A DNA stretch of 64,000 nt from an uncultured Verrucomicrobiota bacterium (GTDB taxonomy: Bacteria > Verrucomicrobiota > Verrucomicrobiia > Opitutales > Opitutaceae), in contig CAIUGM010000022.1 in NCBI GenBank assembly GCA_903898675.1, positions 1 to 64,000 on the forward strand, given 5' to 3'. A program made the position numbers and the translations under genes. The first letter of the stretch is position 1. Each line of letters starts with the position of its first letter. The notes below the pieces were generated by a model, which saw only the letters and a program-made list of their open reading frames with translations, was not told where the DNA came from and did not search any database. Below, one piece after another: positions 13,059 through 43,286 of the stretch.

Positions 13059-13517
13059 ATGACCACGACCCGACTGCCCTCCGTGCGGATCCTTTTTGCG
13101 CTCGCCTGCTGTTTCTCCCTGGGTCTGTCCGCGTTCGCGGCCGGCACCCACGTGAAGGCGGCCAAGCCCCTGCGCATCTCGCAGGGTGAGCGGGTCGAAC
13201 TCACCGACTTTCTCGTGCCGGGCAAGTTCACCATCTTTGATTTCACCAGCGAGTATTGCCCGCCCTGCCGCGGCTACGATGAGCCGCTCTACCTGCTGCA
13301 TGAGCAGCGGGACGAGGTGGCGGTCGTGAAGGTCGATATCAACCGGCCCATGTTTCATAAAATCGACTGGGAGTCCCCCGTCGCCAAGCAGTACGAGCTG
13401 CAATCCATCCCGCACTTCACGATCTATGGTCCCGACGGCAAGCTGGTCGCGGACGACAACAACGACGAGCGGTCCGCCCGCATTTTGGTCGACAAGATGA
13501 TCAACGCGCTGAAGTAG
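13059..13517 (+). CDS. Exported thioredoxin-like protein
   Basis: 152 residues. The signal peptide is MTTTRLPSVRILFALACCFS through about residue 29, followed by a thioredoxin fold with the redox motif CPPC in SEYCPPCRGYDEPL and the cis-proline in SIPHFTIYGPDG. Periplasmic thiol-disulfide exchange is the likely role. The gene is divergent from the HDOD gene and convergent with the DUF3185 gene. CPPC, rather than CGPC, suggests a more oxidising or reductase-specialised protein, but activity cannot be fixed from the motif alone. Confidence 0.85.
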   Translation: MTTTRLPSVRILFALACCFSLGLSAFAAGTHVKAAKPLRISQGERVELTDFLVPGKFTIFDFTSEYCPPCRGYDEPLYLLHEQRDEVAVVKVDINRPMFHKIDWESPVAKQYELQSIPHFTIYGPDGKLVADDNNDERSARILVDKMINALK

Positions 13518-13892: not shown

Positions 13893-14756
13893 ATGTTAAA
13901 ATCCTACCTCCGGTTCCCCTCGCTCCTGGTCACCGCCACGCTGCTGGTCGTCACGGCCCGCGCTGACTTTCACGATCACCTCGGCATCCAGCTCTGGAGC
14001 CTCCATGCGCAGACCATGGCCAAGGGCCTGCCGCCTTCCCTGGACCTGATCAAGGGCTGGGGCTTCACGGAGGTCGAGGGCGGCGTCAGCGCCACGGGCC
14101 CGACCGCCACGCAGGTCCGCGCCGAGTTCGACGCGCGCGGCCTCACCGTGCCGAGCGTGCACGCCTCGTACGAGCAAATGACCAAGGATCTGCCGGCCGT
14201 CATCCGCGACGCCAAGATCCTCGGCGCCAAGTTTGTCATCTGCCCGTGGATCCCCCACGAGAGCGCCTTCGATGCCGCCAAGATGCGCGAGGCCGTCGCG
14301 AACTTCAACAAATGGGGCGCCGCCTTCAGCGCCGCGGGGCTCCGCTTCGGCTACCACCCGCACGGTTATGAATTCGTCCCGAGCGGCACCGCCGGCGAGA
14401 CGCTGCTGGACGACCTGATCAAGGCCACCAACCCGGCGGACGTGTGCTACGAGATGGATGTGTTCTGGGCCTTCCACGCCGGCGGCGACCCGGTGAAGCT
14501 GCTGCAAAAATATTCCACCCGCTGGGTGGCGCTGCACGTGAAGGATATCCGCAAGGGCGCCCCCACCGGCTCGCCGACCGGCAGTGCGCCGGCCACCGAC
14601 AACGTCAGCGTGGGCACGGGCCAGATCGACTGGCGCGCGGTCATCGGCACGGCCGAGAAGATCGGCGTGACGTACTATTTCATCGAGGACGAGACCACCG
14701 CCCCGCTCGAGAATGTGCCCGCCAGCCTCGCCTACCTGCGCGCGCTGAAGCTGTAG
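13893..14756 (+). CDS. Secreted sugar phosphate isomerase/epimerase-like TIM barrel
   Basis: 287 residues with a Sec signal (SLLVTATLLVVTARA) and an AP-endonuclease-2/xylose-isomerase-like barrel: LGIQLWSLHA, GFTEVEGG, VPSVHASYEQM, FGYHPHGYEF, CYEMDVFW, WVALHVKDIRKG and FIEDETT. His and Glu/Asp residues in these loops are the usual metal ligands. Family members isomerise or epimerise sugars and keto-sugars. Export to the periplasm and location directly before the GMC dehydrogenase suggest a role on oxidised free sugars rather than sugar phosphates. Substrate unknown. Confidence 0.82.
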   Translation: MLKSYLRFPSLLVTATLLVVTARADFHDHLGIQLWSLHAQTMAKGLPPSLDLIKGWGFTEVEGGVSATGPTATQVRAEFDARGLTVPSVHASYEQMTKDLPAVIRDAKILGAKFVICPWIPHESAFDAAKMREAVANFNKWGAAFSAAGLRFGYHPHGYEFVPSGTAGETLLDDLIKATNPADVCYEMDVFWAFHAGGDPVKLLQKYSTRWVALHVKDIRKGAPTGSPTGSAPATDNVSVGTGQIDWRAVIGTAEKIGVTYYFIEDETTAPLENVPASLAYLRALKL

Positions 14757-14841
14757 CCCCGCGCCGGGCCGGTCCGGCGCCCGGTTGCTCCGGCCGGACA
14801 AAATCCCAACCCACGCCCCGTTCCGCCCAACCCGCTTTGTT

Positions 14842-16653
14842 ATGCCCATTATTTCCGCGAATCAGGCCAAGCCCGAGTATGATGTGATCGTGATCGGCTC
14901 CGGCGCCGGCGGCGGCCAGGCCGCCTACACCCTCACGATGGACGGCGCCAAGGTCCTCATGCTCGAGGCCGGCCGCGACTACGACCCCGTGAAGGAAACG
15001 CCGATGTTCCAGGACAACTCCGTCGCGCCCCTGCGCGGCGTCGGCACCCCGGACAAGCCGTTCGGCTTCCATGACGCCACCATCGACGGCGGCTGGCAGG
15101 TGCCGGGCGAACCGTACACGCAGGCCTCGGCGGATCCGGCGCAGCACTTCGAGTGGTGGCGCGCGCGCATGCTCGGCGGCCGCACCAACCACTGGGGCCG
15201 CATCGCGCTGCGCAACGGCCCGTATGATTTCAAGGGCTTCACCCGCGACGGCCACGGGTTCGACTGGCCCTTCACCTACGAGGAGATCGCGCCCTATTAC
15301 GACAAGGTCGAGCTGCTCATCGGCGTCTACGGGGAAAACAACGGCCTGGAGAACACGCCGGACTCACCCGACGGCGTGCTGCAGCCGCCGCCCCTCGCCC
15401 GCGCCGGCGAACAGCTCGCCCGCAAGCGGATGAAGGAAATCGGCATCCCGGTGCTCCCGATCCACCGCGCCGTGCTCACACAGCGGCAGGACAGCGAGCG
15501 CCTGCCCGCCCGACTCCACCCGAACAACCCGGCGGCCCAGCGCGCCCTGGCCAAGGCCATGAGCGAACGCGCCGCCTGCTTCTGGGCCACGCCCTGCGGC
15601 CGCGGTTGTGCGATCCGAGCCAATTACCAGTCGACGACGGTCCATCTGCCGCCCGCCCTGAACACGGGCAACCTCGAGATCCTGCCCAACGCCATGGCCC
15701 GCGAGGTCACCCTCAACGCCAAGGGCCTCGCCGACGGCGTGATCTTCACCGACAAGACCACCGGCCAGGAACACCGCGTGAAGGCCCGCGCCGTCGTGCT
15801 CGCCGCCAGCGCGTGCGAAACGGTCCGCGTTTTGCTGAACTCCAAGTCCGCGCAATTTCCGCAGGGCCTCGCCAACTCCAGCGGCCTCGTGGGCAAGTAC
15901 ATCATGGACACCGTGGGCGCCAGCCTCAGCGGCCAGATTCCGGCGCTCGAGAACCTGCCGCCCCACAACGAGGACGGCGCCGGCGGCGGCCACGTCTACA
16001 CGCCGTGGTGGCTCTACCAGGAGCAACTCGCCGGCAAGCTCGGCTTCGCGCGCGGCTATCACATCGAGTTCGGCTCCGGCCGCGAAATGCCCGGCATGGG
16101 CACCGGGTCGGGCCTCGAGCATTTCACCCGCGGCAGCTACGGCCGGAAGTTCAAGGAGGACGCCCGCCGCTACTACGGCACCTACATGGGCTTCTCCGGC
16201 CGCGGCGAAATGATTCCCAACGCCGATTCCTACTGCGAACTCGACCCGGTCGTGAAGGACAAGTGGGGCATCCCCGTCCTGCGCTTCACCTGGAAGTGGT
16301 CCGAGCACGAGACCCGCCAGGCGGAGCACATGGTCAAGACCTTCGCCGACATCATCACGACGATGGGCGGCAAGGTCCTCGGGCCGAATCCCACCCGCCA
16401 CCGCGCGGGCAACCAGGTCATTGAGAAGGGCGGCCGCATCATCCACGAGGTCGGCGGCGCGATGATCGGCGCCGATCCGCAGAAATCCGTCACGAATCCC
16501 TGGGGCCACACCTGGGACGTGAAGAACCTCTACCTCACCGACGGCGCGCCCTTCGCCTCCAACGCCGACAAGAACCCCACCCTCACCATCATGGCGCTGG
16601 CCTGGCGCGCCTGCGACCACCTCCTCGCCGAGATGAAGAAAGGAAATATCTGA
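14842..16653 (+). CDS. GMC-family oxidoreductase (sugar dehydrogenase FAD subunit)
   Basis: 603 residues starting MPIISANQAKPEYDVIVIGS. The FAD-binding Rossmann motif is GSGAGGGQAAYTL with LEAGRDYDP; LGGRTNHWGRIALR is the GMC signature around the flavin; C-terminal NPTLTIMALAWRACDHL is typical of the large subunits of gluconate/glucose dehydrogenases. It has no signal peptide of its own. The next gene begins 2 bases after the stop and encodes the Tat-exported partner, so the two are probably exported together (hitch-hiker mechanism known for FAD-dependent sugar dehydrogenases). No cytochrome c subunit gene follows, so the electron acceptor is not encoded here. Confidence 0.88.
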   Translation: MPIISANQAKPEYDVIVIGSGAGGGQAAYTLTMDGAKVLMLEAGRDYDPVKETPMFQDNSVAPLRGVGTPDKPFGFHDATIDGGWQVPGEPYTQASADPAQHFEWWRARMLGGRTNHWGRIALRNGPYDFKGFTRDGHGFDWPFTYEEIAPYYDKVELLIGVYGENNGLENTPDSPDGVLQPPPLARAGEQLARKRMKEIGIPVLPIHRAVLTQRQDSERLPARLHPNNPAAQRALAKAMSERAACFWATPCGRGCAIRANYQSTTVHLPPALNTGNLEILPNAMAREVTLNAKGLADGVIFTDKTTGQEHRVKARAVVLAASACETVRVLLNSKSAQFPQGLANSSGLVGKYIMDTVGASLSGQIPALENLPPHNEDGAGGGHVYTPWWLYQEQLAGKLGFARGYHIEFGSGREMPGMGTGSGLEHFTRGSYGRKFKEDARRYYGTYMGFSGRGEMIPNADSYCELDPVVKDKWGIPVLRFTWKWSEHETRQAEHMVKTFADIITTMGGKVLGPNPTRHRAGNQVIEKGGRIIHEVGGAMIGADPQKSVTNPWGHTWDVKNLYLTDGAPFASNADKNPTLTIMALAWRACDHLLAEMKKGNI

Positions 16654-16654
16654 C

Positions 16655-17302
16655 ATGAGCCGCCACGACCATCCCCGCCTCGACCGCCGCACCGCCCTCA
16701 AGTGGATGCTCGGCGCCGCCGCCACCGCCGCCGTCATCGGCCGCCCCGCCTTCGCCGCCCTGGGCGCCACCGCGCCGGCCGCCAAACCCTACGGCACCGA
16801 CCCGGACCTGGGCCGGGAATACAAGCCCGGCGAACTCTGGCCACTCACGTTCAGCGCGACCCAGCGCCGCACCGCCGCGGCCCTGTGCGCTGCGATCATC
16901 CCCGCCGAGGGCGCGACGCCGAGCGCCGCGGCCGCGGGCGTGCCCGACTTCATCGACGAGTGGATCAGCGCGCCCTACGCCGACCAGCAGAAGGACCGCT
17001 CGCCCGTCCTCGACGGCCTGGACTGGATCGAACAAGAGGCGCAGCGCCGCTCCGGCAAATCCTTCGCCGACCTCGACGACCACCAGGTCGCGGCCATCTG
17101 CGACGACATCTGCCACGCGCCGGATGCGAAGCCCGGGCTGGCCGACGCCGCCAAGTTCTTCGCGCGGTTCCGCGATCTCACCGCCGGCGGTTTCTACAGC
17201 ACGCCGGCCGGCATGAAGGACATCGGCTACATCGGCAACACCCCGCAGGCCGAGTTCAAGGGGCCGACCCCCGAGGCGCTGCGGCACCTCGGCCTGATCT
17301 GA
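16655..17302 (+). CDS. Gluconate 2-dehydrogenase subunit 3 family protein (Tat-exported)
   Basis: 215 residues with a twin-arginine signal: LDRRTALKWMLGAAATAAVI. The mature part (FSATQRRTAAALCAAIIPAE, GVPDFIDEWI, TAGGFYSTPAGMKDIGYIG) is the gluconate_2-dh3 family, the small gamma subunit that chaperones and exports the GMC flavoprotein. Translation is probably coupled to the upstream gene, with only one base between stop and start. Together they should form a periplasmic sugar dehydrogenase. Confidence 0.88.
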   Translation: MSRHDHPRLDRRTALKWMLGAAATAAVIGRPAFAALGATAPAAKPYGTDPDLGREYKPGELWPLTFSATQRRTAAALCAAIIPAEGATPSAAAAGVPDFIDEWISAPYADQQKDRSPVLDGLDWIEQEAQRRSGKSFADLDDHQVAAICDDICHAPDAKPGLADAAKFFARFRDLTAGGFYSTPAGMKDIGYIGNTPQAEFKGPTPEALRHLGLI

Positions 17303-17351
17303 CCGGGAAGCGGATAGGTCTGAGCAGCCCGAACGTTTAGAACACGGAGAG

Positions 17352-17500
17352 ATTAACCACAGAATACACCGAACACACCGAATGAAATCTCCGGCAGGAG
17401 AGAATGGCGGGGAATTTGGGGAAGATATTTTTCCCCGTTTGTTTCTCTGAAAAAGTCAGCTCATTTTCTGTGTGTTCCGTGTGTTCTGTGGTGAACCGAT
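17352..17500. repeat. Inverted pair of CACAGAAnACACnGAA-type repeats
   Basis: TTAACCACAGAATACACCGA (about 17353) is followed some 100 bases later by its approximate reverse complement, TCTGTGTGTTCCGTGTGTTC. The same arms recur between genes at 34.4, 37.3, 47.9 and 49.2 kb. The 227-base gap between the two genes here otherwise holds nothing recognisable. Confidence 0.7.
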
Positions 17501-17528
17501 TGGAAAATTCCGCTCAACCCCTGCCCCC

Positions 17529-18395
17529 ATGTCCGCTCCCCTCACCCGTCGCACCGCCCTGAAACAACTCGCGCTGGCCGGAATCGGCCTGCCGCTCGCG
17601 GGGAGCCTGGGCCGGGCCGCGGAAACCGCCGCCGGCTCACCTTCCCCCAAGGCCGCCTTCCAACTGGGCGTCGCCACCGTCACCCTGAAGAGCCTGCCGC
17701 TCGCCGACGCCCTCGCCGCCGTGCATCGCGTCGGCCTCGACCGCGTCTCGCTCTTCCGCGCGCATTCGCCGTGGGAGAATTCCCCGCCCGCCTGGCAGGC
17801 CGTCGCGCAGAAAATCAAGGCTGCGGGCATCACCGTGGGCTGCTGCGGGGTGCTCTACCTCAAGAATGACGAACCCGCGATGCGCCGCCTGTTCGACTAC
17901 GCCTGCGCGCTGGGCGTGCCGCTGTTCAGCTGCAGCCCGGAACCGGCCGCGCTGCCGCTGCTGGAGCGGCTGGTGAAGGAATACGACCTGCGCGCCGCGA
18001 TCCACAATCACGGCCCCGAGGACAAGAGCTGGCCGTCGCCCGACGAGGTCTGGCGCGCCATCGCCCCGCTCGATCCGCGGATCGGGCTGTGCCTCGACGT
18101 CGGACACAGCGCGCGCTCCGGGATCGATCCGGTCGGCGTGATCCGCCGCTACCGCGACCGGCTCTACGATGTGCACCTGAAGGACATCGTGGCCCCGGTG
18201 GGCGGCAAGGACGACCCGGTCGAGATCGGCCGCGGCCGGCTCGACCAACGTGCGATTCTCACCGCCCTGCTGGCAACCGGTTATAACGGCACCGCGTGGT
18301 TCGAGTACGAAAAGGACCCGAACGACCCCGTCCCCGGCCTCGCCGAATCCGTCGGCTACATCCGCGGGCTGCTGCAGGGATTGGGTGCGGTTTGA
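17529..18395 (+). CDS. Tat-exported sugar isomerase/epimerase-like TIM barrel
   Basis: 288 residues beginning with a twin-arginine signal (LTRRTALKQLALAGIGLPLA). The barrel shows LGVATVTLKSL, RVSLFRAHSPW, ITVGCCGVLYL, LRAAIHNHGPEDK, IGLCLDVGHSARSGIDPV, YDVHLKDIVAP and WFEYEKDPND, the usual order of metal-ligand loops of sugar isomerases/epimerases. The Tat signal implies folding, and perhaps metal loading, before export. It is the second such protein beside the GMC dehydrogenase, though a 226-base repeat-containing gap suggests its own transcript. Specificity unknown. Confidence 0.82.
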   Translation: MSAPLTRRTALKQLALAGIGLPLAGSLGRAAETAAGSPSPKAAFQLGVATVTLKSLPLADALAAVHRVGLDRVSLFRAHSPWENSPPAWQAVAQKIKAAGITVGCCGVLYLKNDEPAMRRLFDYACALGVPLFSCSPEPAALPLLERLVKEYDLRAAIHNHGPEDKSWPSPDEVWRAIAPLDPRIGLCLDVGHSARSGIDPVGVIRRYRDRLYDVHLKDIVAPVGGKDDPVEIGRGRLDQRAILTALLATGYNGTAWFEYEKDPNDPVPGLAESVGYIRGLLQGLGAV

Positions 18396-18517: not shown

Positions 18518-20554
18518 ATGCCCTCCTGTAGAACCGTTCAACGCGCCGCGCTGCTGGTCCTTGGCGCCACCCTAACGCTCGGCCTGACGGCCGCCGACAA
18601 GCTGGACCTCGACCGCATGACGCCGGTCCCGGCCACGGAGCAGATCCCGATCGTCGACTTCTTCCGGCCCCGGCTGATTCAGGACCCGGTCCTCAATCTT
18701 TCCGGCACCCATGTCGGCGCCATCGTGGCGGGCGACGGCGACAACACCGGGCTGATCATCTACGACCTCGCCACGCAGAAGATCGAGAGCAAGGGCGCCC
18801 GCGGCGACACCGACATCGACATGGTATCCTGGCTGAACGAGACGCGTTACGTCTACCAGATCAATGCGCGCAAGACCGGCATGACGATGCTGTGCGCAGG
18901 CGAGATTGGCGCCCTGCACCGGTCCTATCCCCTGCTGCAGAATGTCGGGGCCTCCCTGCTCGCGATCCCGCCGGCCGACCGCACGCATCCGCTCGCCCAC
19001 ATGGGCGCCAACACCATGAACACCGGCAAATACGGCGAGGTCGTGACGCTGGACGCCACGATTGAGACCGGGAAGCTGCTCGACCCGAGCGGCGACTACC
19101 CGGACCAGCGCCAGCTGGACGAGGCCGCGGAGAGCAACACGCACCACATCACCGTCCGGCACCCGACCCTGGAGACCCCGGAGGGCTTTGATCAGAATTA
19201 TTTCGCCGACAAGGAAGGCGAGCTGGCCTACGCCATTTCCGCGGTGCACGGGCACCTGACCCTGCACCGGCTGGCCGGCGGCAAGTGGGAGAAATGCCCC
19301 ATCGACCTCGAGGAAATCAAGGTGGTCGGCGCCGGCGACAATCCCGGCGAAATCGTCGTCCTCGGCGCCCGCCAGGACGGCAAGCCGCGTCCGCTCCAGA
19401 TCATGGAGGCCGCGACCGGCAAGGTGCTCGACGTCCTGATCCAGGACAAGGACTACGACGCCAACGCCTGGCTCTACCGCGATCCGGCGTCGCACCTGAT
19501 CGTGGGCGCGACCTATGAGCGCAATGGGCCCCGTACCGTCTGGTTCTCCGAGGGCTACCGCGCCCTGCAGAAGCTGGTCGACGGACTCTTCCCGGGCCAG
19601 GTGGTCCGCATCCTGGGCACGGACATCGGCGGAAAAATGATGCTCATCAGCACCTTCTCCGACCGCCAGCCGCCCATCTACAGCTGGGTCGACCTGCAAA
19701 AGCGCACCGCGGGCACGATCCGCAATTCCGCGCCCTGGATCGACCCGAAGCGGATGCGGTCGTCCGGCATCGTGAAATTCAAGACCCGCGACGGCCGCCA
19801 GCTCGACGCGTACGTCACCATGCCCGCCGGCGCCACGAAGCAGAACCCGCCGCCCCTTGTCGTGCTGCCGCATGACGGTTCCGACTGGCGCGATTCCTGG
19901 GGCTTCAACGCCGAGGCGCAGTTCTTCGCCAGCCGCGGCTACGCGGTGCTGCAGCCCAACTACCGCGGCTCGGCCGGCTCCACCTGGCTTTTCCCCACCG
20001 AGGACGAGTGGGCCTACCGCAAGATGAGCGACGACGTCACCGACGCCACCAAGACCCTCATCGCCGCCGGCCTGGTCGACGCGCGCCGCGTGGGCCTGGT
20101 CGGGACCGGCTTCGGCGGCTACCTCGCGCTCTCCTGCGCCGCGTTCGAGCCGGGCCTCTTCCGCTGCGTGGCGGCCGTCTCGCCGGTCGTCGACTGGGGC
20201 CGTGTCATGGAGGACAGCAAGGTGAACCAGTACTCCGATTCCTCCTACGCGCGCATGCTGTTCAAGCTCGGTGACCCGCGGAAGGAAGCGGAGAAATTCA
20301 GCAGCTTCTCCCCGTTGCAGCACGCCGACCAGATCAAGGCCGCCGTGCTGATTTCCAACAGCGAGTATGATTCCAGCGCCCAGGTCCGCGATGCCAAGGA
20401 CCTCGCCTCCACCGTGGACCACGGCCACGGGTCCTCCGACACCATTTCCTACCTCAACGAAGCCCATGGCGTCCGCCACCTGGTCAACAAGGTTGACCTC
20501 TACTCCCGCATCGAGTCCTTCCTCGCGAAGAACCTGGGCCCGGGCGCGCCTTGA
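18518..20554 (+). CDS. Secreted S9 prolyl-oligopeptidase-like protein, nucleophile Ser missing
   Basis: 678 residues with signal peptide (AALLVLGATLTLGLTAA), an N-terminal beta-propeller (about 60-410) and a C-terminal alpha/beta-hydrolase domain (PPPLVVLPHDGSDWRDSWGF onward). The motif where S9 peptidases have G-x-S-x-G-G-Y reads GTGFGGYLAL: Gly531 (codon GGC, 20108-20110) sits where Ser belongs. The acid (NSEYDSSAQV) and histidine (LNEAHGVRH) regions are retained. One A-to-G change of AGC would explain it. It is therefore predicted not to be a normal serine peptidase; it may bind peptides or have another role. Confidence 0.85.
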   Translation: MPSCRTVQRAALLVLGATLTLGLTAADKLDLDRMTPVPATEQIPIVDFFRPRLIQDPVLNLSGTHVGAIVAGDGDNTGLIIYDLATQKIESKGARGDTDIDMVSWLNETRYVYQINARKTGMTMLCAGEIGALHRSYPLLQNVGASLLAIPPADRTHPLAHMGANTMNTGKYGEVVTLDATIETGKLLDPSGDYPDQRQLDEAAESNTHHITVRHPTLETPEGFDQNYFADKEGELAYAISAVHGHLTLHRLAGGKWEKCPIDLEEIKVVGAGDNPGEIVVLGARQDGKPRPLQIMEAATGKVLDVLIQDKDYDANAWLYRDPASHLIVGATYERNGPRTVWFSEGYRALQKLVDGLFPGQVVRILGTDIGGKMMLISTFSDRQPPIYSWVDLQKRTAGTIRNSAPWIDPKRMRSSGIVKFKTRDGRQLDAYVTMPAGATKQNPPPLVVLPHDGSDWRDSWGFNAEAQFFASRGYAVLQPNYRGSAGSTWLFPTEDEWAYRKMSDDVTDATKTLIAAGLVDARRVGLVGTGFGGYLALSCAAFEPGLFRCVAAVSPVVDWGRVMEDSKVNQYSDSSYARMLFKLGDPRKEAEKFSSFSPLQHADQIKAAVLISNSEYDSSAQVRDAKDLASTVDHGHGSSDTISYLNEAHGVRHLVNKVDLYSRIESFLAKNLGPGAP

Positions 20555-20951: not shown

Positions 20952-22088
20952 TCACTTCGTCGGGCTCAGCCCGCCCCAGGGCGTGATGGCGTTGAGCGCC
21001 GGAACGATGGCACGACGCAACGCGAGGAAATCGAGCGAGCCCGTCTCGCGGTAGAGCACCTTGCCGTCCGCCCCCACCAGCAGGGTGTAGGGCAGCGCGC
21101 CACCCCACTCCGGATCCAGCGCCTCGATGAGCGCATACTTGTCCGTGGTGGCAAAGATCAGGTTGCGCGTCGAAGCCTGGTGCTGCTGGAGAAATTTCCG
21201 CACCTTGGGCTCCTCGTCGGGAAACTGCGCGGCCAGCGTCACCAGCTCAAAATCGCGGTGCCGAAAGCGCAGGTTCTGCTCGATCAGCTCGTCGAACTCC
21301 GCGACGCATGGCCCGCACCACGTCGCCCAGGCATTGATCAGCCGGAGCTTGCCGGTGCCCGCGTTGGCCCGCAGTTCACGCAGGGCCGCGGCATCGGCAT
21401 GCGCGAGCGCCACCGGCTCATGCGCCACCTTCTCGCGCCAGCGCTGGTTGTCGTCCGCCTTCTCCTTCCACTTGATCGAGCAGCCAAAGACCTTCGTGTG
21501 CGCCACTGCCGGTTCGCGGCCGGCGAGCAGCGCCTCAAGCGCGTCGCGGGTGTCGTGGTGCGTCGCCAGTTCCTCGCGCTCGGAGTCGTCGATCCGGCCC
21601 GAGAAACGCAGGTGGCGGCTGCGGTCGAAGATGAAGACATGCGGCGTGGCGACCGCGCCGAATTGCTCGACGACCGCCTGCGTGGGTCCGTCGTCGGCGT
21701 AGGGAAAGTTGAACGCGTGGTGCGTCGCGCGGATTTTCATTTCCGCGAAGGTATCCCCCACGTCGGTGTAGCCCATCTCGTCGAGCCGGACCGCCTCGGC
21801 GTGGTTGGGGTTGATGGCCAGAAAGGCGACGCCGCGCGCGCCGTAGGCGGTGACCAGTTTTTTCAGCCGCTCCTCGTAGGCCTGCGCCGTCGGGCAGTGG
21901 TCGCAGGTGAAGACGATCGCCAGCAGCTCGGCCTGGGCAAAATCCGCCGGCGTGTAGTCGCGGCCGTCGGTCGCCGGCAGCTTGAAATCGGGCAGCGCGG
22001 AACCCAACGGCAATGTGGGTCGGTCCGTCGCGCGCAGTGATGCGAAGGCCAGCAGAAAACAGCAGGTAATAGTCAGGAAACGGCGCAT
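20952..22088 (-). CDS. Exported protein with two thioredoxin-fold domains
   Basis: 378 residues. Signal peptide MRRFLTITCCFLLAFASLRA. The first domain is AhpC/TSA-like: GSALPDFKLPATDGRDY, LLAIVFTCDHCPTAQAYEER, and TPHVFIFDRSRHLRFSGRID. The second is TlpA-like with a CGPC motif in INAWATWCGPCVAEFDELI and the cis-Pro in GALPYTLLVGADGK. Tandem redoxin domains of this kind act in periplasmic disulfide reduction. The first domain carries CDHC, with resolving Cys uncertain. Convergent with the BamE-like gene. Confidence 0.85.
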   Translation of the reverse strand: MRRFLTITCCFLLAFASLRATDRPTLPLGSALPDFKLPATDGRDYTPADFAQAELLAIVFTCDHCPTAQAYEERLKKLVTAYGARGVAFLAINPNHAEAVRLDEMGYTDVGDTFAEMKIRATHHAFNFPYADDGPTQAVVEQFGAVATPHVFIFDRSRHLRFSGRIDDSEREELATHHDTRDALEALLAGREPAVAHTKVFGCSIKWKEKADDNQRWREKVAHEPVALAHADAAALRELRANAGTGKLRLINAWATWCGPCVAEFDELIEQNLRFRHRDFELVTLAAQFPDEEPKVRKFLQQHQASTRNLIFATTDKYALIEALDPEWGGALPYTLLVGADGKVLYRETGSLDFLALRRAIVPALNAITPWGGLSPTK

Positions 22089-22226: not shown

Positions 22227-23747
22227 TTACTTCACCGGCTGGTAGCGCACGTACGCCAGCTTCAGGCTGTCGGGCGACCACGAGGGCACGTTGATCGTGC
22301 CCTGGCCGCCGAAGAGTTTCACCAGCACGGTGATCTCCCCGCCCGCCACCGGCATGAGCCGGAGCATCACATCCTTGTCGGCCGGGTGGCCGCTGACGTC
22401 CGGTGCGTAGCTGAGCAGCACGAGCCACTTGCCGTCGGGCGACGGGTGCGCGAACCAGTTGTTGTACTCGTCCTTGGTGACCTGCTCCATCGCCGAACCA
22501 TCGGCGTGCATCCGCCAGATTTGCATCCGGCCGGTGCGGTCGGAGTTGAAATAGATCCACTTTCCGTCCGGCGAATAGTCCGGGCCGTCGTCGAGCCCGT
22601 CCGTGATCGTGAGACGTTTCTCCGCCCCACCCGCAACCGGAATGGTGAAGATGCCGAACTTGCCGTCGCGCTGCGCGCAGTACGCCAGGGTCTGCCCGTC
22701 GGGCGACCAGCCGTGCCAGTAGGACGGCGCCTTGGGCGTGATTTCCTTCGGTGCACCGCCGGCCGCCGGCAGCGTGTAGATCCGGGAATGGCCGTCCTTG
22801 GTCTGGTCGCTGATCACGAGCGTCGACCCGTCGGGCGAGAGCCCGTGGTCGTTGTTGCACTTCACCGCGAAGCCGGTGTCGATGAGCTCGGGCGTGGCCG
22901 TCCCCGCGAGGGGCAGCCGGTAGATGCGGCCGCCGCCGTTGAAATAGAGCGCGTGGCCGTCCGGCGTCCAGTTGGGCGCCTCGATCAGTTCGTTCGTGTG
23001 ATGGACGCTGCGGCGGTCGCCGGAGGCGATGGTGACGGTTTCGAGGGAGCTGCGCACAGCCTTCACGCTGGCGGGCGGCGCGCCGATTTCAACGTTGGAG
23101 AAAACCGCCGTCTCAAAGGCATCCGCATTGTGCGCACAGACGCCCAGCCCGATATAAAACGGTCCCTTGAAGGGCAGCCGCACCGAGCAGCCGGACGGGT
23201 GCAGCACGCCGTCCGCCCCGGCGAGCGACAGATAAACCGTGTCGCCGATCCTCGCGATCTGGAGCCGGCGCGGCGCGGGGACCGAGCTCTGGACCTCGCG
23301 CGTGACGTCACCGGGCGCGCCGCGGAATTGCAGCGACGTGAGCCCGTCGCCATGCAGGGCGGCATCCGCATAGGCCGAATCGGAATCGAGGGTCTGCCGG
23401 ATGACCAGGCAGGCCTTCCGGTGCGCCTCGGGACTCTGGCCCACGAAACTGATGTCCGCCGCGAGGGCGATGTCCCCGTCCACCTGCTTCCAGACATAAT
23501 GAAACGAGTCGTTCTTCGCCCACATGTTCTGCCCGCTGGCGCCGACCGTGTAGGTCCCGGTCGCGGAGTCGTAAGCGACGGTACCCGCCTGCTTCGGCGC
23601 GCCGATATCGGTGTGGGCGGTGAAGAGCCCGGGGTCGGCGCGCAGGGCGGACGACAGCAGGACACCAAGGACAAGAAAACAAAGCGTCCGCGCCGGGGAC
23701 ACGCGCCAAGCCGGCAGGGCGGCAAGCCAACGTGAAGGGGTAATCAC
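22227..23747 (-). CDS. Exported TolB-like beta-propeller protein with N-terminal DUF1349-like domain
   Basis: 506 residues if the GTG at 23747 is used ([14 protein letters not shown]); another GTG 18 codons upstream is possible. A signal peptide ends near SSALRADPG. Residues to ~210 form a jelly-roll, DUF1349-like part ([20 protein letters not shown]). The C-terminal half has WD40-like/PD40 repeats with recurring SPDG motifs: [74 protein letters not shown]40 propellers bind proteins or glycans in the periplasm. No catalytic motif. Confidence 0.75.
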
Positions 23748-23807
23748 GGCACGAAGAAAACCGCGCGGCCGCGCGAGTGGCAAGTCTATCTCCGATGGCA
23801 CGGGAGG

Positions 23808-23857: not shown

Positions 23858-25732
23858 ATGCTGGCCAAGGTTTACCGGATGATGTCGATGTTTCGCGCCG
23901 TCTGCCTCGCCACCCTGTTGTCGTGCATCGCCGCGGCCGCCGCCGAGCCGGCCAGCCCGCCGGCCGATCCGCAGCTGAACCCCCGCGGGCGGGCGATCCT
24001 CGCCTATTTCCAGCAGCTGCAGGCCAGCCCGGAGCTCATACTGCTGTCGGGTCAGTTCTGCAGCTTCGGTCCCACCAGCCGGCCCGAGGCGGCGGATAAG
24101 ATCTTCGCCACCACCGGCCGCTGGCCGGCCATGATCAGCTCGGACTACACCGACTTTAAGGGCCATTGGCTCGACACCAAGACGCCGAACCGGCTGCTGC
24201 TCGACTACTGGCGCGCCGGCGGGCTCGTCGGCCTGAGTGTGCACCTCAACAACCCCGCCCGCCCCGAGGGCGGCGGACAGCGGGACAAGATCGCGGACAT
24301 CACCACGATCCTCACCCCCGGCACGGAGCTCAACCAGCGCTGGCTGCACCAGCTCGACGACCTCGCCGCCGGGCTGCAGGAATTGCAGGCGGCCGGCGTC
24401 GTGGTGCTCTGGCGCCCGTTTCACGAGATGAACGGCGGCTGGTTCTGGTGGGGCGCCCAGGACCAGGCGGGGCTCATCAAGGTCTGGCGGCACATGTTCG
24501 ACTACTTCACGAAAACCAAGGGGCTCCACAACCTCATCTGGGTCTTCAGCCCCAACCACGGCCAGCGTCCGCCGGCCAGCTACTACCCGGGTGACGGCTA
24601 CGCGGACCTCGTCGGCCTCGACGTGTACACCGACGACATCGACCCGGCGCACGTCCTCGGCTACCCGGAACTCGCCGCGATCAACAAGCCTTTTGGTTTC
24701 ACGGAGTATGGTCCGCACGGCGCATCCAATCCACCCGGCGACTTTGACTACCGGCGGTTCCCCACCGGGCTCGCCGTGAATTTCCCGCGCACCCGGTTCT
24801 TCCTCGCGTGGGATGACAAGTGGAACCCGGCGGAGAACAAGTTCGCCCGCGAATTCTACACCGACCCGCGCGTGATCACCCGCGCCGACCTGCCCGCCGG
24901 GCTCGCCGGCAACGATTCCCCTGCCACCGTCGAGGCCTGGCGCGCGGAGCGCGTCAACCGGCTGACGAAGCCGAACAGCTGGCTCACCCTGATCGGCCGC
25001 CACCCGCTCCCTCCGGGCGAATCCACCGTCGGCGCCGACGCCGACAACACGATCAGGCTCGCCGCCGGCCCCGCGCATCTCGGGAAAATCACCTCCGTTC
25101 CCGGCGGCGCGGTCACGCTCGCCCTCGCGGACGGCGCCGACGCCCGGATCGAGGACACGGACGCACGCACGGCGGAACTCGTCTACCACGGCGAGAAACC
25201 CACGCATGTCTTCTCCGGCACCATCAACTTCTATGTGATGGAACGTGGTGACAGCCTCTACCTCCGCGTCCGGGACAGCGCGGCCGACCGCCTGAAGCAT
25301 TTCGCCGGGCTCGACTACTTCCCGATCGATCCGTCGTGGCGCATCGAGGCGCAATGGGTGCCCTTCGATCCGGTGCGCCAGGTCAACATCACCAACGTGC
25401 TTGGCCAGGTTTCGCCCGCCCCGGTGCCGGGCAAGGCCGTGTTCACGCGCGACGGCCACACCTGCGAATTGCTCGCCATCGACGAGGGCGCGGGCGAGCC
25501 GCTCTTCTTCGTCCTCTCCGACCAGACCAGCGGCCAGGAAACCTACGCCGCCAGCCGCTTTCTTTACGCCGAGCGGCCGAGGGACGGGAAGGTCATCCTC
25601 GACTTCAACCGCGCGGAAAATCCCCCGTGCGCCTTCACGCCCTTCGCCACCTGCCCGCTCCCGCCGAAGGAAAACCAACTGGCGATCCGGATCACCGCGG
25701 GGGAAAAAGTTTACCGGGGGGAGCAGCACTAG
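23858..25732 (+). CDS. Secreted GH26 beta-mannanase fused to a DUF1684 domain
   Basis: 624 residues in one uninterrupted frame; an ATG at 23879 with AAGG upstream is an equally good start. A signal peptide ends near IAAAAAEPAS. Residues ~40-345 are a GH26 barrel: LLSGQFCSF, ISSDYTDFKG, acid/base E190 in WRPFHEMNGGWFWWG, and nucleophile E283 in FGFTEYGPHG. From ~356 (VEAWRAERVNRLTKPNSWL) to ~620 the sequence is a complete DUF1684 domain: GESTVGADADNTIRL, DYFPIDPSWRIEAQW, TSGQETYAASRFLYA and the signature DFNRAENPPCAFTP/TCPLPPKENQLAI. GH26 enzymes cut beta-mannan; the function of DUF1684 is unknown. DUF1684 is normally a stand-alone exported protein, so the fusion is unusual. Confidence 0.85.
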   Translation: MLAKVYRMMSMFRAVCLATLLSCIAAAAAEPASPPADPQLNPRGRAILAYFQQLQASPELILLSGQFCSFGPTSRPEAADKIFATTGRWPAMISSDYTDFKGHWLDTKTPNRLLLDYWRAGGLVGLSVHLNNPARPEGGGQRDKIADITTILTPGTELNQRWLHQLDDLAAGLQELQAAGVVVLWRPFHEMNGGWFWWGAQDQAGLIKVWRHMFDYFTKTKGLHNLIWVFSPNHGQRPPASYYPGDGYADLVGLDVYTDDIDPAHVLGYPELAAINKPFGFTEYGPHGASNPPGDFDYRRFPTGLAVNFPRTRFFLAWDDKWNPAENKFAREFYTDPRVITRADLPAGLAGNDSPATVEAWRAERVNRLTKPNSWLTLIGRHPLPPGESTVGADADNTIRLAAGPAHLGKITSVPGGAVTLALADGADARIEDTDARTAELVYHGEKPTHVFSGTINFYVMERGDSLYLRVRDSAADRLKHFAGLDYFPIDPSWRIEAQWVPFDPVRQVNITNVLGQVSPAPVPGKAVFTRDGHTCELLAIDEGAGEPLFFVLSDQTSGQETYAASRFLYAERPRDGKVILDFNRAENPPCAFTPFATCPLPPKENQLAIRITAGEKVYRGEQH

Positions 25733-25897: not shown

Positions 25898-26596
25898 ATG
25901 AAAGCCCGCGACTGGGACAAACTCGCCGCCGCCTACGAGGCCGAAGTGTGCGACATCTTTGTCCGCGACCGGCGGCAGGTCATTGCGCGCTGGTTGCAGG
26001 CGCGCGGCCTCTTGCGCGGCCGCAAAACGCTCCTCGATCTCGGCTGCGGCATCGGCTCGTTCATTAAAAAATACGGCCGGCATTTCGGCGACAAGACCGG
26101 CACCGACCACTCGCGGGCCATGCTCCGGATCGCGGCGGCCCGCTGCCGCCGGCTCAAGGACTGTCACTGGCTGCAGGCCGACGCGCAGCGATTGCCGCCC
26201 GCCCTGCGTGATCGCGGCGACCTGGTCGTCTGCTCCAACGTCATCACGTTCGTTTCCGCCGCCGCCTGCGTCCGGGCGCTCCGGCTGGTGGTGCAGTGCA
26301 CCAAGCCCGGCGGCCGGATCATGCTGATCCAGCCCGCCCTCGAAAGCCACGACGCCGTCGTCGCCCTCGAGACCGGCCGCACCACGCCCCGGCGGGTGCA
26401 GGCCGCTATCGTGCGCCGCGACGACCGGATGCAGCGCTTCTTCACCCGCGAGGGCGCCGCCGCCCTCGCCCGCGCCGCCGGTTTGCGCTCGGTGCAGGTG
26501 CGCAAGGTCTGGTATCCTTGGATCGACGAAGGCATCACCCGCGTGCCCCGCGGCCATGAGTTGCCGTGGGACTGGCTGGTGACGGCGCGGCGGTAG
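25898..26596 (+). CDS. Class I SAM-dependent methyltransferase
   Basis: 232 residues with SAM-binding motif I LLDLGCGIGSF, the acidic residue in TGTDHSRAML, motif LQADAQRLPPA, and motif IV DLVVCSNVITF. The N-terminal start MKARDWDKLAAAYEAEVCDI is characteristic of free-standing small-molecule or protein methyltransferases. No signal peptide. The substrate is not evident, and neighbouring genes (GH26 fusion, MFS pump) do not settle it. It is separated from both by palindromic repeats. Confidence 0.85.
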   Translation: MKARDWDKLAAAYEAEVCDIFVRDRRQVIARWLQARGLLRGRKTLLDLGCGIGSFIKKYGRHFGDKTGTDHSRAMLRIAAARCRRLKDCHWLQADAQRLPPALRDRGDLVVCSNVITFVSAAACVRALRLVVQCTKPGGRIMLIQPALESHDAVVALETGRTTPRRVQAAIVRRDDRMQRFFTREGAAALARAAGLRSVQVRKVWYPWIDEGITRVPRGHELPWDWLVTARR

Positions 26597-26895: not shown

Positions 26896-28137
26896 ATGGT
26901 CCCGACTTCTCCACGCCAGCCGGCCATCGGCTTCATCTTTGTCACCCTGGTCCTCGCCATCGTCGGCTTCGGTTTGCTGATCCCGGTTCTGCCGAAACTG
27001 ATTGTGCAGTTCGAGGGCGGCGACCTCGCCACCGGCTCCCACGCGTACGGCTGGATCATCAGCGTCTATGCGCTGATGCAGTTTGTCGGTTCGCCCATCC
27101 TGGGTTCGCTCTCCGACCGCTACGGCCGGCGGCGCATCATCCTCATCGCCACCGCGGGCTCCGCGGCCGACTACGTGATCATGGCCTGCGCCCCGAGCCT
27201 GTCCTGGCTCTTTGTCGCCCGCATCATCGCCGGCTTCACCGCCGGCGTGCTGTCGACGGCGAACGCCTACGTGGTCGACGTGACCCCGCCCGAGAAGCGC
27301 GCCGGCGCCTTCGGCCTGCTCGGCGCCGCCTTCGGCATCGGCTTCATCATCGGGCCGGCCCTCGGCGGCTTCCTGGGCAACATCGACCTGCGGCTGCCGT
27401 TCTGGTTCGCGGCCGGCTGCTCGGCGATCAACTGGTTCTACGGGTTCCTCGTGCTCCCGGAATCCCTCAAGCCCGAAAACCGCCGCGCGTTTTCGTGGAG
27501 CCGGGCCAACCCCATCGGCGCCCTGCTGGCGCTGAAACACCTGCCCGCGGTGCTGGGGCTGGCGGAAGCCTACTTCATTCTGATGGTGGCCCAGAACATG
27601 ATGTTCTCCACGTGGGCGCTCTATACCGACTACCGCTACCACTGGACCCCGCTCGACGTCGGCCTGTCCCTGATGTTTGTCGGCGTGCTCACCGGCGTGG
27701 TCCAGGCCGTGCTGGTCAAGCAACTGGTGCCCAGGCTGGGCGACGCCCGGTCGGTCGTGATCGGCCTCTGCATTTCCATCGGCGCCTACCTCTGCTACGG
27801 CCAGGCCCAGTATGGCTGGATGATCTACCTCATCATCTTCTTCGGCGCCCTCGCCGGCATCTCCGGCCCGGCCCTGCAGTCGTACGTCACCAAGCACGTG
27901 CCCGCCGACCAGCAGGGCGCCGTGCAGGGCGTTTACGCCGGGCTGGCCAGTCTCGCGGGCATTCCCGGGCCGTTCCTCGCGACGTGGAGTTTCGGCTGGG
28001 CAATCGCCCCGGGCAACCGCTTCCATGTGCCGGGCATCGCGTTCTTCGAGGCGGCCGTCCTCATCGCCCTCGCCCTGTTCCTCGCCCTCCGCAGTTTCCG
28101 CCGGGATACGGTCGCGGCGGCGGTGGCGGCCCATTGA
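26896..28137 (+). CDS. MFS transporter, TetA/DHA1-like efflux family
   Basis: 413 residues with about 12 hydrophobic helices, beginning [20 protein letters not shown]. The DHA1 motif A is [14 protein letters not shown] in the loop between helices 2 and 3, with [14 protein letters not shown] in the central loop and a C-terminal half repeating the fold. The sequence looks like the TCR/Tet-type proton antiporters that export drugs. No TetR regulator is adjacent, so induction is unknown. Nothing shows its actual substrate; a housekeeping role is also possible. Confidence 0.85.
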
Positions 28138-34838: not shown

Positions 34839-37184
34839 TTATTCGCCCGCGAGAAAGCGCTCCAGCGCGTCGCTCACCAGCAAATCCGTGTGCCGGTAGT
34901 TCCGCGGAGCCATCCGGGCCACACCGGCAAAGGGCCATAACGCATCGACGGACAAGGCGACCCGGTAGAGCCGGGCGGCGTCCAGTTTGCCCGTTTCGAT
35001 GCCGGCGCCGGGGTAGATGGAAATCGGTGGCGCCTTATCCGCCGCCAGCTTGCCAGCCAGCTCCGTCAACTCCGCCCCGGTCATGTCGCACACCCCGATA
35101 TGCAGGTCATAATACAGCGTCGCGAGGTCCGAGACGCGCGTGACCCCGGTCACGGCCAGCGGCACCGGCCCGGGCAGGTCGTTCCCGACCAGGGCGATCT
35201 CCGCTCCGGCAGCCCGGCGGATCGCGGCGCCGTACCTGGCGGTGTAGTCGTTGAAGGTCCGGATGGCCGCGGGCACGAGGGGTGACTGTTCCCGGCCCGG
35301 CGTCCAGTGCCAGCGGCTGTCAAAGGTGCGGGTGGCGACAAACGTGGGCGCGGCCGCGTTCATCACCATGAAATCGGCTTCGAACAGGGTGGGCACCCCG
35401 CCCATCAGGAGCGGGACAAACGAACCCGCCGCGTAGGCTGCGGGGTCGGCGGATGCCACCCAGAAGATCAACCGGTCCGGCGCGAGCGGATTGTAGTGTA
35501 CGAGCCCGAGCACATTGCCCTTACCCGGCAGCTTGAGGCCGTCGCTGCAGGTGATGGCTTCGCCCGCGAACTGGACCGGCAACCGGTCGGCCAGCCGCGC
35601 CACCACTGCATTCTGCGCCGCGGTGCCGATCAGCACGAGATGACAGCGCGCGATTTGCGCCTCGGTCACGGCGGTGTCCGCCGCGATGTTCAGGTGGCCG
35701 TAAAGATTCTGGCTGTGGGGCACGCCGTCCGGCCCGAGGTCGCCGCCATCCGCCAGCCACGCCGCATTGGGGCTCTTGCTGGCCGCCTCCGCCGCGGCGC
35801 GCAGCGCCGACCGCTCGAGCTCGGTGCCCCCGGTGCCATAGACGATGAGCAGCGGTTCGCCGTCATAGAGCAGCGTCGCGCTGCCGGGCGTGTGCAGGCG
35901 GAACGGCAGCGCCGCGGCCCCGGCTTCGAACGCCCACCCCTGCTCGCCGCGCACCAGCACGGCTTCCCCGGGCAGCGGGGCCGGCAGGGTGATGGGCACC
36001 GCGCCATTCACCGCCACTTGCAAAGGCTGCGCCCGGTCGAACGGCGACTCCGCCAGCCGCAGGCGCAGCCGGTCGATGTTGGTCAGCTGCGCGAAGAGCT
36101 GGTTGCCGACCCCGGCACTGAGGACAAACCGCGCCGGCTTGGGCGCCGCCCCCCATTCGACCACCTCGCCCCACCAGCCGCGCAGCGCGCCGCCGTCGGT
36201 CGCGGTGTAGTCGATGTGGCGCACGGTGCGCGAGTCGGGCCGCACCTGCGCCAGCTCCCAGGCCGCGCCGCGCTCGTTGCCTTCCTTGTAATCCCACACC
36301 GCGTGACCGTAGCCGTTGGTCTCGTCGAAGATCACCTGGCCGCCTAGCTCGCGCAGCCGCGCCAGCGGGCCGCGGTCGTGGAGCACCGGCACCGTATAGT
36401 CGTCCGCACTGTGGGTGGCATAGATCGGCAGGGTCAGCAGGTTCCCGACCGGCACAAAACTCGCGTAGCCGCACACCGGCCGGCCCGAGGCCCAGCGGTG
36501 CGGATAGCGCGAGCCCAGCCGGTAGGTGCCGCCGCCGCCCATGCTGCCGCCGTTGAGGTGAATCCGGTCGGGATCGATGGCCCAGTGCGCCTGCACGTAG
36601 GCGATCACGTCCAGCACATCCGCCTCGGACAGCGTCCGGTAGCCACCCCCGCGCGAGCGGCCCAGCACCGCCAGGTCGAGCGAGCCCGGGTGGGATGCCA
36701 TGCCGGTCGAGTGCTCGAGGTGGTTGCCGCTGTAGCCGTGCATATAAACCGACAAAGGCGCGGGATGCCTCGGGTTGTAGTCCGTCGGGATCGCCATCTT
36801 GAAAGGCTGGCCCGAGCCGTCGGCGGCCGATTCATAGGCCCATTCCTGCACGCCGGTCAGCGTCGCCAATAAATGCGGGTTGGCGGTGATGCGTTCCACC
36901 CATTCCGCCAGCCGCTTGGTCTTGGCGAGCGCCGCCTCGCTCGCGGCCCCGTCCTTCGCCACCGCGGTCTCCGCCTCAAAGCGCAGGAACTTGATCCAGC
37001 CGCGATAGTCGGCCAGGTCGGCCCGGGCCAGCGCGGCCTCGGCTTGCCCGCGCGCCTGGTCCAGCAGCCGGGCCGCGTCGGCCGCGGACGGCGGAGGTGC
37101 TTTCGCCTCGGCGCGGGCGACGGACGCCAGACTCAGTCCGCTGATGAGGGCCAAGCCGGTGATCAGGCGTTGCAGGGTATTCAT
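34839..37184 (-). CDS. Secreted two-part esterase (PHB-depolymerase/PET-hydrolase-like fold)
   Basis: 781 residues with signal peptide (ITGLALISGLSLASVARA). An N-terminal helical region is followed by an alpha/beta-hydrolase part: SVYMHGYSGNHLEHSTG, nucleophile elbow LNGGSMGGGGTYRLGSRYPH, acid in THSADDYTVPV, and His in NGYGHAVWDYKE, the order of a catalytic triad. The C-terminal half (~400-780) contains a further FVLSAGVGNQLFAQLTNIDR region and a region resembling 5'-nucleotidase C-terminal repeats (FNDYTARYGAAIRRAAGAEI, ISIYPGAG). The substrate is unknown. It lies between parE and parC on the opposite strand. Confidence 0.75.
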   Translation of the reverse strand: MNTLQRLITGLALISGLSLASVARAEAKAPPPSAADAARLLDQARGQAEAALARADLADYRGWIKFLRFEAETAVAKDGAASEAALAKTKRLAEWVERITANPHLLATLTGVQEWAYESAADGSGQPFKMAIPTDYNPRHPAPLSVYMHGYSGNHLEHSTGMASHPGSLDLAVLGRSRGGGYRTLSEADVLDVIAYVQAHWAIDPDRIHLNGGSMGGGGTYRLGSRYPHRWASGRPVCGYASFVPVGNLLTLPIYATHSADDYTVPVLHDRGPLARLRELGGQVIFDETNGYGHAVWDYKEGNERGAAWELAQVRPDSRTVRHIDYTATDGGALRGWWGEVVEWGAAPKPARFVLSAGVGNQLFAQLTNIDRLRLRLAESPFDRAQPLQVAVNGAVPITLPAPLPGEAVLVRGEQGWAFEAGAAALPFRLHTPGSATLLYDGEPLLIVYGTGGTELERSALRAAAEAASKSPNAAWLADGGDLGPDGVPHSQNLYGHLNIAADTAVTEAQIARCHLVLIGTAAQNAVVARLADRLPVQFAGEAITCSDGLKLPGKGNVLGLVHYNPLAPDRLIFWVASADPAAYAAGSFVPLLMGGVPTLFEADFMVMNAAAPTFVATRTFDSRWHWTPGREQSPLVPAAIRTFNDYTARYGAAIRRAAGAEIALVGNDLPGPVPLAVTGVTRVSDLATLYYDLHIGVCDMTGAELTELAGKLAADKAPPISIYPGAGIETGKLDAARLYRVALSVDALWPFAGVARMAPRNYRHTDLLVSDALERFLAGE

Positions 37185-40001: not shown

Positions 40002-40196
40002 ATGAGCACCGTGCAGGAAATCGAGACCGCCATCAGCCGTCTTTCCCCCGCGGAAATGCGCCTGGTGCGTGATTGGTTGGAAAACCAGCTCGAAGACCGG
40101 TTGGAAATGACGAATGAGTTCAAGGGCCGCATCGAGAGTTCGGAACGCCAGATGGCTGAAGGCCAGCGTCCGCGCACTCGATCCAGCCCTGAATGA
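40002..40196 (+). CDS. Antitoxin of a RelE/ParE-type system
   Basis: 64 residues, acidic helix-rich start MSTVQEIETAISRLSPAEMR followed by DWLENQLEDRLEMTNEFKGR and a basic tail. Proteins with this LSPAEMR-x-x-x-WLE pattern are found as antitoxins before RelE-like toxins. The stop overlaps the toxin start (ATGA), which is typical of translationally coupled toxin-antitoxin pairs. The operon is likely autoregulated, but I saw no clear operator. Confidence 0.75.
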   Translation: MSTVQEIETAISRLSPAEMRLVRDWLENQLEDRLEMTNEFKGRIESSERQMAEGQRPRTRSSPE

Positions 40197-40450
40197 GCCG
40201 CTCACTTCAGGTCTACTACGCCACGTTCGACGAGGTATTCCTCGGATTGCCCGACGGCATTCGTCACCGGATTGAAGCTGCCCTGGATGACATGGGCCTG
40301 CGCCTCGGCTCTTATCCGCACTACCGGATGACCGGCGGCAACCGCTACCGGCTTCGCGTCGGCGACTACCGGATCATATACACTTTCGACCCAGCCTTGA
40401 ACGAGATCCACCTCCTCGCCGTCGGCCACCGCCGCGAGATTTACCGGTAG
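40193..40450 (+). CDS. RelE/ParE-family toxin
   Basis: 85 residues. LQVYYATFDEVFLGLPDGIR, ALDDMGLRLG, YRMTGGNRYRLRVGDYRIIY and LLAVGHRREIYR are the RelE/ParE superfamily pattern, with conserved R/Y in GDYRIIY and GHRREIY. RelE toxins cut mRNA on the ribosome; ParE toxins attack gyrase; sequence alone does not separate them here, though the length and GHRREIYR end resemble mRNA interferases. It directly follows the antitoxin and sits downstream of parC. Confidence 0.85.
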   Translation: MSRSLQVYYATFDEVFLGLPDGIRHRIEAALDDMGLRLGSYPHYRMTGGNRYRLRVGDYRIIYTFDPALNEIHLLAVGHRREIYR

Positions 40451-43079: not shown

Positions 43080-43286
43080 TGCCCGCCTGTCTTCCTTCCG
43101 CGCACGCGGTGGTCAGGTAATACCTCATATTCAGTTTTTGCGTTTCTTGTGGCCAACGATCCGCCCAGGCTCGCCTCCAGCCTTCACTTGCAGTCTGAAT
43201 CGCCCGCCGACAACCTCGGCTCATTCCGCCGGGACTGTTCACCCCGAGTCCCGGAGCGCAGGTCATCCCGCCTGTTCCCCCGCCCC

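Follow-up and report, generated by a model that had tools for sequence, protein, structure and literature searches.

Architecture of the fused gene

The window analysed here, a stretch of 64,000 nucleotides from an uncultured Verrucomicrobiota bacterium of the family Opitutaceae (contig CAIUGM010000022.1), carries a gene in which a GH26 mannanase is followed directly by a DUF1684 protein (Table 1). ORF reading of the window returned a single frame of 624 codons from ATG to TAG with no internal stops. That one unbroken frame holds both families had been proposed in a preliminary description of the sequence, and its coordinates and named residues were borne out by the ORF reading and by Pfam. 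NCBIfam, searched at an E value of 0.1, held no family for the fused protein. A full-length AlphaFold2 model had a mean pLDDT of 90.7. It was weak across the junction (residues 351-360, with a mean pLDDT of 66 for this block) and in the loop between C591 and C599 (residues 592-596, pLDDT <50), and its pTM of 0.66 leaves the placement of the GH26 and DUF1684 parts relative to each other not fixed.

Table 1 The fused gene, its parts and the neighbouring genes in the window.
Feature	Position	Strand	Remarks
Fused gene, GH26 mannanase + DUF1684 protein	23858..25732	+	624 aa; same architecture in G203
Putative N-terminal export signal (~residues 1-29)	23858..23944	+	Hydrophobic N-terminus, predicted from the sequence; type I or lipoprotein signal
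GH26 catalytic barrel (residues 38-342), E190/E283	23969..24883	+	Pfam match and alignment to solved relatives
Junction/linker (residues 343-356), GH26 tail LPAGLAG to mature DUF1684 start	24884..24925	+	Compared with the ends and starts of separate genes
N-terminal half of DUF1684 protein (residues 357-479), FHA-like fold	24926..25294	+	Predicted model, weak profile match
Pfam DUF1684 core (residues 480-617), Cx7C pair C591/C599	25295..25708	+	Pfam match; fold of 4fj4/4dlh
Small thioredoxin-like gene (trx), signal-like N-terminus	13059..13517	+	Precedes DUF1684 in many genomes of the genus; ~10 kb off here
S9-type peptidase	18518..20554	+	Beside GH26 in six double carriers and G206
Double-thioredoxin protein (AhpC/TSA + thioredoxin)	20952..22088	-	Beside GH26 in 6/6 double carriers
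PD40 beta-propeller gene adjoining GH26	22227..23801	-	Also in G113, G207; not found in G161, G208, G203
Methyltransferase	25898..26596	+	Often the next gene downstream of DUF1684 within the genus, or close to it
MFS transporter	26896..28137	+	Often near DUF1684, on its downstream side, within the genus

The GH26 family (PF02156) matched with 185.4 bits against a cut-off of 20.2 and spanned positions 3-309 of the 311 in the profile. The complete barrel, with E190 and E283 at the positions first described, was thus confirmed by Pfam and by alignment. The two residues (in HEMNGG and FTEYGP) aligned with glutamates in 7eet, 2qha, 3cbw and 2whk, and we take them to be the acid/base and the nucleophile, respectively, by analogy with other GH26 enzymes. 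Three of these best four solved relatives are named as mannanases (7eet, 2qha, 2whk) and one as YdhT (3cbw), with endoglucanase H amongst the weaker solved matches. The entire barrel aligned with all four and the catalytic Glu pair and HEMNG.WFWW motif were kept; unlike the window protein, however, these chains comprise 336-353 residues and have no DUF1684 part. From its family and residues, the GH26 part is predicted to be a working endo-beta-1,4-mannanase. It was one of three GH26 matches in the window genome (3.5 Mb).

The DUF1684 match (PF07920, 153.2 bits against a cut-off of 25) was the only one in this genome and covered the whole profile (1-139/139). Whilst the Pfam core is therefore complete, as had been claimed for the domain, the unit joined to the mannanase is larger. 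In most of the rows listed, separate DUF1684 relatives aligned from residues ~340-360 to 618-624 of the fused protein, and this alignment from about residue 350 to the end makes the unit roughly twice the Pfam domain, that is, a whole DUF1684 protein. The model of the DUF1684 part (mean pLDDT 89.8) showed two halves. The first, at residues ~373-465, is predicted to be FHA-like (Z 11.0, rmsd 2.1 over 86 residues to 3po8; VIA-align) and gave a weak profile match to the same FHA protein (E 0.12). Although the fold is shared with the FHA domains 3po8 and 3gqs (Z ~11), Ser-Arg-x-His, the motif of phosphothreonine-binding FHA domains, was missing by eye from the DUF1684 alignment rows. The second half has the predicted fold of 4fj4_A (Z 22.2, rmsd 1.9 over 166 residues; Foldseek E 1.9e-10).

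This core fold is shared with the solved haloarchaeal DUF1684 proteins 2lnu, 2lok, 4dlh and 4fj4, of which 2lnu and 2lok carry the same DFN, Cx7C and C.LPP motifs. The match to these chains covers the second half of the unit only (122-263 of 265 profile positions), and the FHA-like half appears to be missing from them. Like HVO_1043 of Haloferax volcanii, they are not fused to any enzyme, unlike the window protein.

A second fusion in the genus

The window genome (G000) was compared within a set of 21 genomes of its genus, and the fusion recurred in one further genome, Lacunisphaera sp. nzgw616 (G203). There, residues 170-622 lie in a single frame with 69% identity and the front of the gene lies on another contig; C41 and C205, the two contigs, share an overlap of 35 identical bases within it. 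The two genes are joined at the same position, reading ...LPAGLAG-NDSPATVEAWRAERV in the window and ...LPAGLAGPEDYPASIAKWRAGRL in G203. The low coverage of the G203 contig (3.5 by its title) and the division of its gene over two contigs might suggest that assembly or annotation had created the fusion. Against this, the window contig is 352 kb long and its frame is clean, the join in G203 is the same and falls within a single contig, and the contig overlap falls within the gene. We give an artefact next to no weight and regard the fusion as real.

Both fused genes have kept the residues that characterise DUF1684. Across 27 unfused relatives 31 residues do not vary; the window protein has 30 of these (the sole change is G374S) and the G203 protein all 31; those kept in the window include the DFN...NPPC...CP residues and the Cx7C pair. 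With a root-to-tip distance of 0.30, the second shortest among 19 rows, the window DUF1684 part gave no indication of a speed-up after fusion. Differences between the codons of the two fused genes were concentrated at the third position, with counts at positions 1/2/3 of 64/48/114 for DUF1684 (266 codons) and 30/22/69 for GH26 (179 codons). The fused DUF1684 part thus appears intact, with no sign of decay, and both parts appear to be constrained.

Searches beyond the genus returned no other fusion among the matches listed for 200 family genomes and 372 order genomes. In a wider contig scan (79 loci of 270 confirmed places, with the window's own genome possibly outside), both families were near each other in three loci, fused in one (L072) and as separate genes in two (L074, L083). 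Across the phylum, PF07920 matched 22 of 387 genomes, 20 of them in the window's family; judged by open-frame length, the longest match besides that of the window genome was in G113 (453), whose two genes are separate. Two kinds of candidate were rejected. The long DUF1684 frames at L113-L116 (453 aa) were ruled out by an internal start with a signal-like N-terminus (by eye), and the 882-codon frame shared by the two families in G161 by the presence of a stop after GH26, then trx and then a fresh signal. No report of GH26 with DUF1684 was found in an open-access literature library.

Gene order around DUF1684 and GH26

Within the genus, DUF1684 occurred in 18/21 genomes, GH26 in 8/21 and both in six (G000, G203, G113, G161, G207 and G208). 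All six double carriers have GH26 upstream of DUF1684 on the same strand, either fused (G000, G203) or within ~3 kb. The remaining four carry the same two proteins in the same order and on the same strand as the window fusion, but as two neighbouring genes, each with its own signal-like N-terminus. Their GH26 genes end in LAGP, LSGR, LAGN and LAGSR, each followed by the stop. Their DUF1684 proteins have a signal-like N-terminus by eye, with a post-signal start such as ADDYLASVEAW, in agreement with the earlier remark that DUF1684 is usually a separate exported protein. The trx gene lies between GH26 and DUF1684 in G161, G207 and G208; only a short gap separates them in G113, where there was no trx match.

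Among the marker genes placed by blast, the commonest order was SNF2-trx-DUF1684, found in eight genomes (G071, G130, G187, G200, G201, G202, G204 and G209) with no GH26 there; a methyltransferase followed in 6/8 and an MFS gene in 6/8. Overall, 20 genomes with DUF1684 were tabulated, and 13 of them, among these the window genome, had trx in the DUF1684 locus stretch. The block of S9 peptidase, double thioredoxin and GH26 lies between trx and DUF1684 in the window genome and before trx in G161, G207 and G208. The gene row of G203 has been rearranged, as its trx and its methyltransferase are found on a different contig (C239). We infer that DUF1684 belongs to the older gene row, and that the S9 peptidase, double thioredoxin and GH26 block (with PD40 in 3/6) arrived upstream of it. 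G205, G206 and G093, which gave no DUF1684 match, also have no close methyltransferase, which may reflect loss or gaps in the assemblies. G205 is the nearest genome by partial rpoB (99% over 276 residues) and has neither the fusion nor DUF1684, whilst G189 and G206, the nearest in the GH26 tree, have GH26 and no DUF1684 match.

Several other genes in the window were recorded. A GH5 gene (4577-5581, + strand), whose best solved relatives are named endoglucanase or cellulase, adjoins the YchJ/SNF2 end of the DUF1684 gene row. Genes for two TIM barrels (the first xylose-isomerase-like), a GMC oxidoreductase and a gluconate 2-dehydrogenase subunit 3 occupy 13893-18395 (+ strand), between trx and the GH26 block, and may together serve sugar oxidation. 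Further along are two small overlapping ORFs at 40002-40450 (+ strand), which give the impression of a toxin-antitoxin pair from their sequence, and a GH35 beta-galactosidase (43149-45632, + strand) that carries an F5/8 type C domain at its C-terminus. Two long coding-like ORFs on the - strand, at 34839-37184 (781 aa) and 61111-62613 (500 aa), had no Pfam match at 1e-5.

Descent of the two fusions

Separate trees were built for the DUF1684 part (27 rows; a stop in the matched stretch of the G171 row was removed) and for the GH26 part (17 rows). In both trees G203 grouped with G207, G113, G161 and G208, with support of 100/99 for DUF1684 and 100/100 for GH26. The window gene fell outside this group in both and, in the GH26 tree, stood with the unfused G206 and G189 (93/94). 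A clade of G000 and G203 was rejected by the AU test (P = 1.0e-5 for the DUF1684 tree and 5.7e-82 for the GH26 tree); as the tests followed inspection of the trees, these P values are not clean prior tests. The rpoB protein varied too little to resolve the positions of the genomes, with G203 (110 aligned residues) left out and the G208 row forming a long unreliable branch. As the rpoB tree was uninformative, the independence of the fusions rests on the two gene trees and gene order.

The simplest reading of these trees and of the gene order is that two separate fusions occurred. Comparison of the six double carriers suggests that each arose by deletions between neighbours, which would have removed the stop of GH26 together with the signal peptide of DUF1684. 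The shared junction in G000 and G203 could instead point to a single ancestral fusion, later undone in those relatives whose genes are now separate. That history demands repeated splitting, a new DUF1684 signal peptide and the insertion of trx between the parts in three genomes, and trx is common beside DUF1684 where there is no GH26. Both trees reject a G000 and G203 clade as well, although repeated splitting would be compatible with that. Overall, we consider a single old fusion very improbable.

DUF1684 is widespread without GH26

Whether the fusion says anything about DUF1684 depends on how the two families occur elsewhere. The preliminary description had taken the covalent link to a mannanase as a clue that DUF1684 acts on, or binds, mannan-derived sugars or acyl groups. 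The fusion behind this argument stands and is repeated in a second genome, but the tie to mannan is not supported, since DUF1684 is widespread without GH26. In the genus, 12 of the 18 DUF1684 carriers had no GH26 match with this query. Outside the genus, both families were among the matches listed in 11 family genomes; in nine they were on different contigs, where in draft assemblies they may still be neighbours, and in the other two (G003 and G052) they shared a contig at a distance of ~95 kb or more. Amongst 14 control genomes, DUF1684 was present in three, of which Haloferax volcanii and Corynebacterium glutamicum gave no GH26 match and Deinobacterium chartae matched both. The fusion follows from neighbourhood, and guilt by fusion gives a weak reading of DUF1684; that the same pair seems to have fused twice does, however, leave room for a functional link with the mannanase.

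The neighbours of separate DUF1684 genes were mixed. The survey took in 113 of 167 listed ORFs, at +/-2 genes of 30 loci, leaving out those at +/-3 genes, a DUF1684 paralogue and two DUF1684-overlapping ORFs. No family dominated: the commonest of 97 (25 listed) were MFS_1 and YkuD (5 each), Methyltransf_25 and Thioredoxin (4 each), and GH53 and UxuA (3 each). These counts carry the errors of ORF calling in GC-rich DNA, and one locus (L110) had no called DUF1684 ORF. GH53 follows DUF1684 in G147, G204 and G071 (L043, L064 and L040), with GH88 in the first two, and the DUF1684 locus thus seems to gather glycan genes. At L043 and L064 there is an intervening ORF of 795 and 754 aa, respectively, with no Pfam match at 1e-5. 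Tandem duplicates were seen of DUF1684 in G096 (L039, 9335-11201), followed by trx and MFS, and of GH26 in G125 (L038, 9172-11297), in a stretch with no DUF1684 match.

Taken as an accessory of mannan breakdown, which binds mannan or removes acyl groups and was brought beside the mannanase by fusion, DUF1684 would fit the two fusions of separate descent, the constant placement of GH26 in the 6/6 double carriers, the joint occurrence in Deinobacterium chartae and the GH53 and GH88 genes just described. The 12 genus carriers and two of the three control genomes that gave no GH26 match are at odds with it. The make-up of the protein may also count against it: Pfam at an E value of 0.001 found no further family in the DUF1684 half, neither a CBM nor a carbohydrate esterase, and the FHA-like fold and 4fj4 core were accompanied by no carbohydrate module among the fold-search matches listed for the DUF1684 model. 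We judge a role in mannan breakdown unlikely.

The join may also be neutral, neighbours having been brought into frame by deletions and the product persisting because neither part suffers, with no functional meaning. With both genes adjacent on the same strand one short deletion suffices, one in three random joins keeps the frame, and the linker is short; moreover, the fusion is found in just 2/21 genus genomes and is absent from G205, the nearest by partial rpoB. That it seemingly happened twice with the same junction sits less easily with neutrality. The constraint on both parts also counts against it, though each part may keep its own job, which a neutral join would allow. A neutral origin is a possibility that we treat as doubtful, and rather less so than a role in mannan breakdown.

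A thiol or oxidant lead for DUF1684

The only functional lead for DUF1684 that we found in an open-access literature library was the hypochlorite response of Haloferax. In that report, the DUF1684 gene hvo_1043 of Haloferax volcanii is bound by OxsR, and hypochlorite raises its transcript 10- to 40-fold (PMC9426492). Its authors placed hvo_1043 with thiol-relay genes, from a conserved Cx7C and close thiols in a model and alignment (PMC9426492). The window DUF1684 part also has a Cx7C pair, C591/C599. One haloarchaeal relative and the invariant cysteines suggest, by analogy, that DUF1684 has a thiol or oxidant role.

Three observations feed the redox reading: the response and Cx7C of hvo_1043, the trx genes at 13/20 loci, and 4fj4, a relative whose title gives it as a mercury complex. 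The double thioredoxin beside GH26 in 6/6 genomes, together with trx near DUF1684, fits such a role. On the other side, induction and a cysteine motif are indirect evidence, the adjacency of trx is mostly the common gene order of one genus (plus G096), and blast of the called ORFs at DUF1684 loci L102-L149 found no trx. Independence from mannan is argued by the 12/18 genus carriers with no GH26 match and by the commonest gene order, SNF2-trx-DUF1684; the GH53 and GH88 genes beside DUF1684 in some genomes speak against both it and the redox role, and the two fusions of the same pair may point to a link with the mannanase.

On balance, the explanation we favour, with our confidence about evenly divided for and against, is an exported bifunctional protein that combines a working GH26 endo-beta-1,4-mannanase with an intact DUF1684 module whose role is independent of mannan and probably concerns thiols or oxidants. 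As the fused forms have neither a GH26 stop nor a DUF1684 signal peptide, both parts depend on the GH26 signal, through which, judging from the sequence, both would be exported. Beyond the cytoplasm, the GH26 part would then cut mannan and the DUF1684 part, with its FHA-like half and its beta core bearing Cx7C, would join in thiol/disulfide or oxidant handling. Fusion would give co-export at a fixed 1:1 ratio and imply no common substrate. In two other genomes, the DUF1684 starts of L133 (5632-6801, Xanthomonas) and L149 (6049-6948, a Cyclobacteriaceae genome) resemble, by eye, the signals of lipoproteins, and some members of the family may thus be tethered to the membrane.

A closer coupling can be imagined, in which the repeated fusion marks an exported oxidant- or thiol-responsive DUF1684 that serves the extracellular hydrolase as a shield, switch or anchor. 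We think this improbable, more so than a role in mannan breakdown; an accessory module of this kind is not known for any glycoside hydrolase.

The wider lesson is that a gene fusion, even twice over, can result when genes acquire new neighbours, and does not necessarily imply a common substrate. DUF1684 is spread over several phyla and the haloarchaea and has no established function. This locus offers a construct in which the module is tied to an enzyme with a read-out, with unfused controls in the same genus, and makes the role of DUF1684 directly testable.
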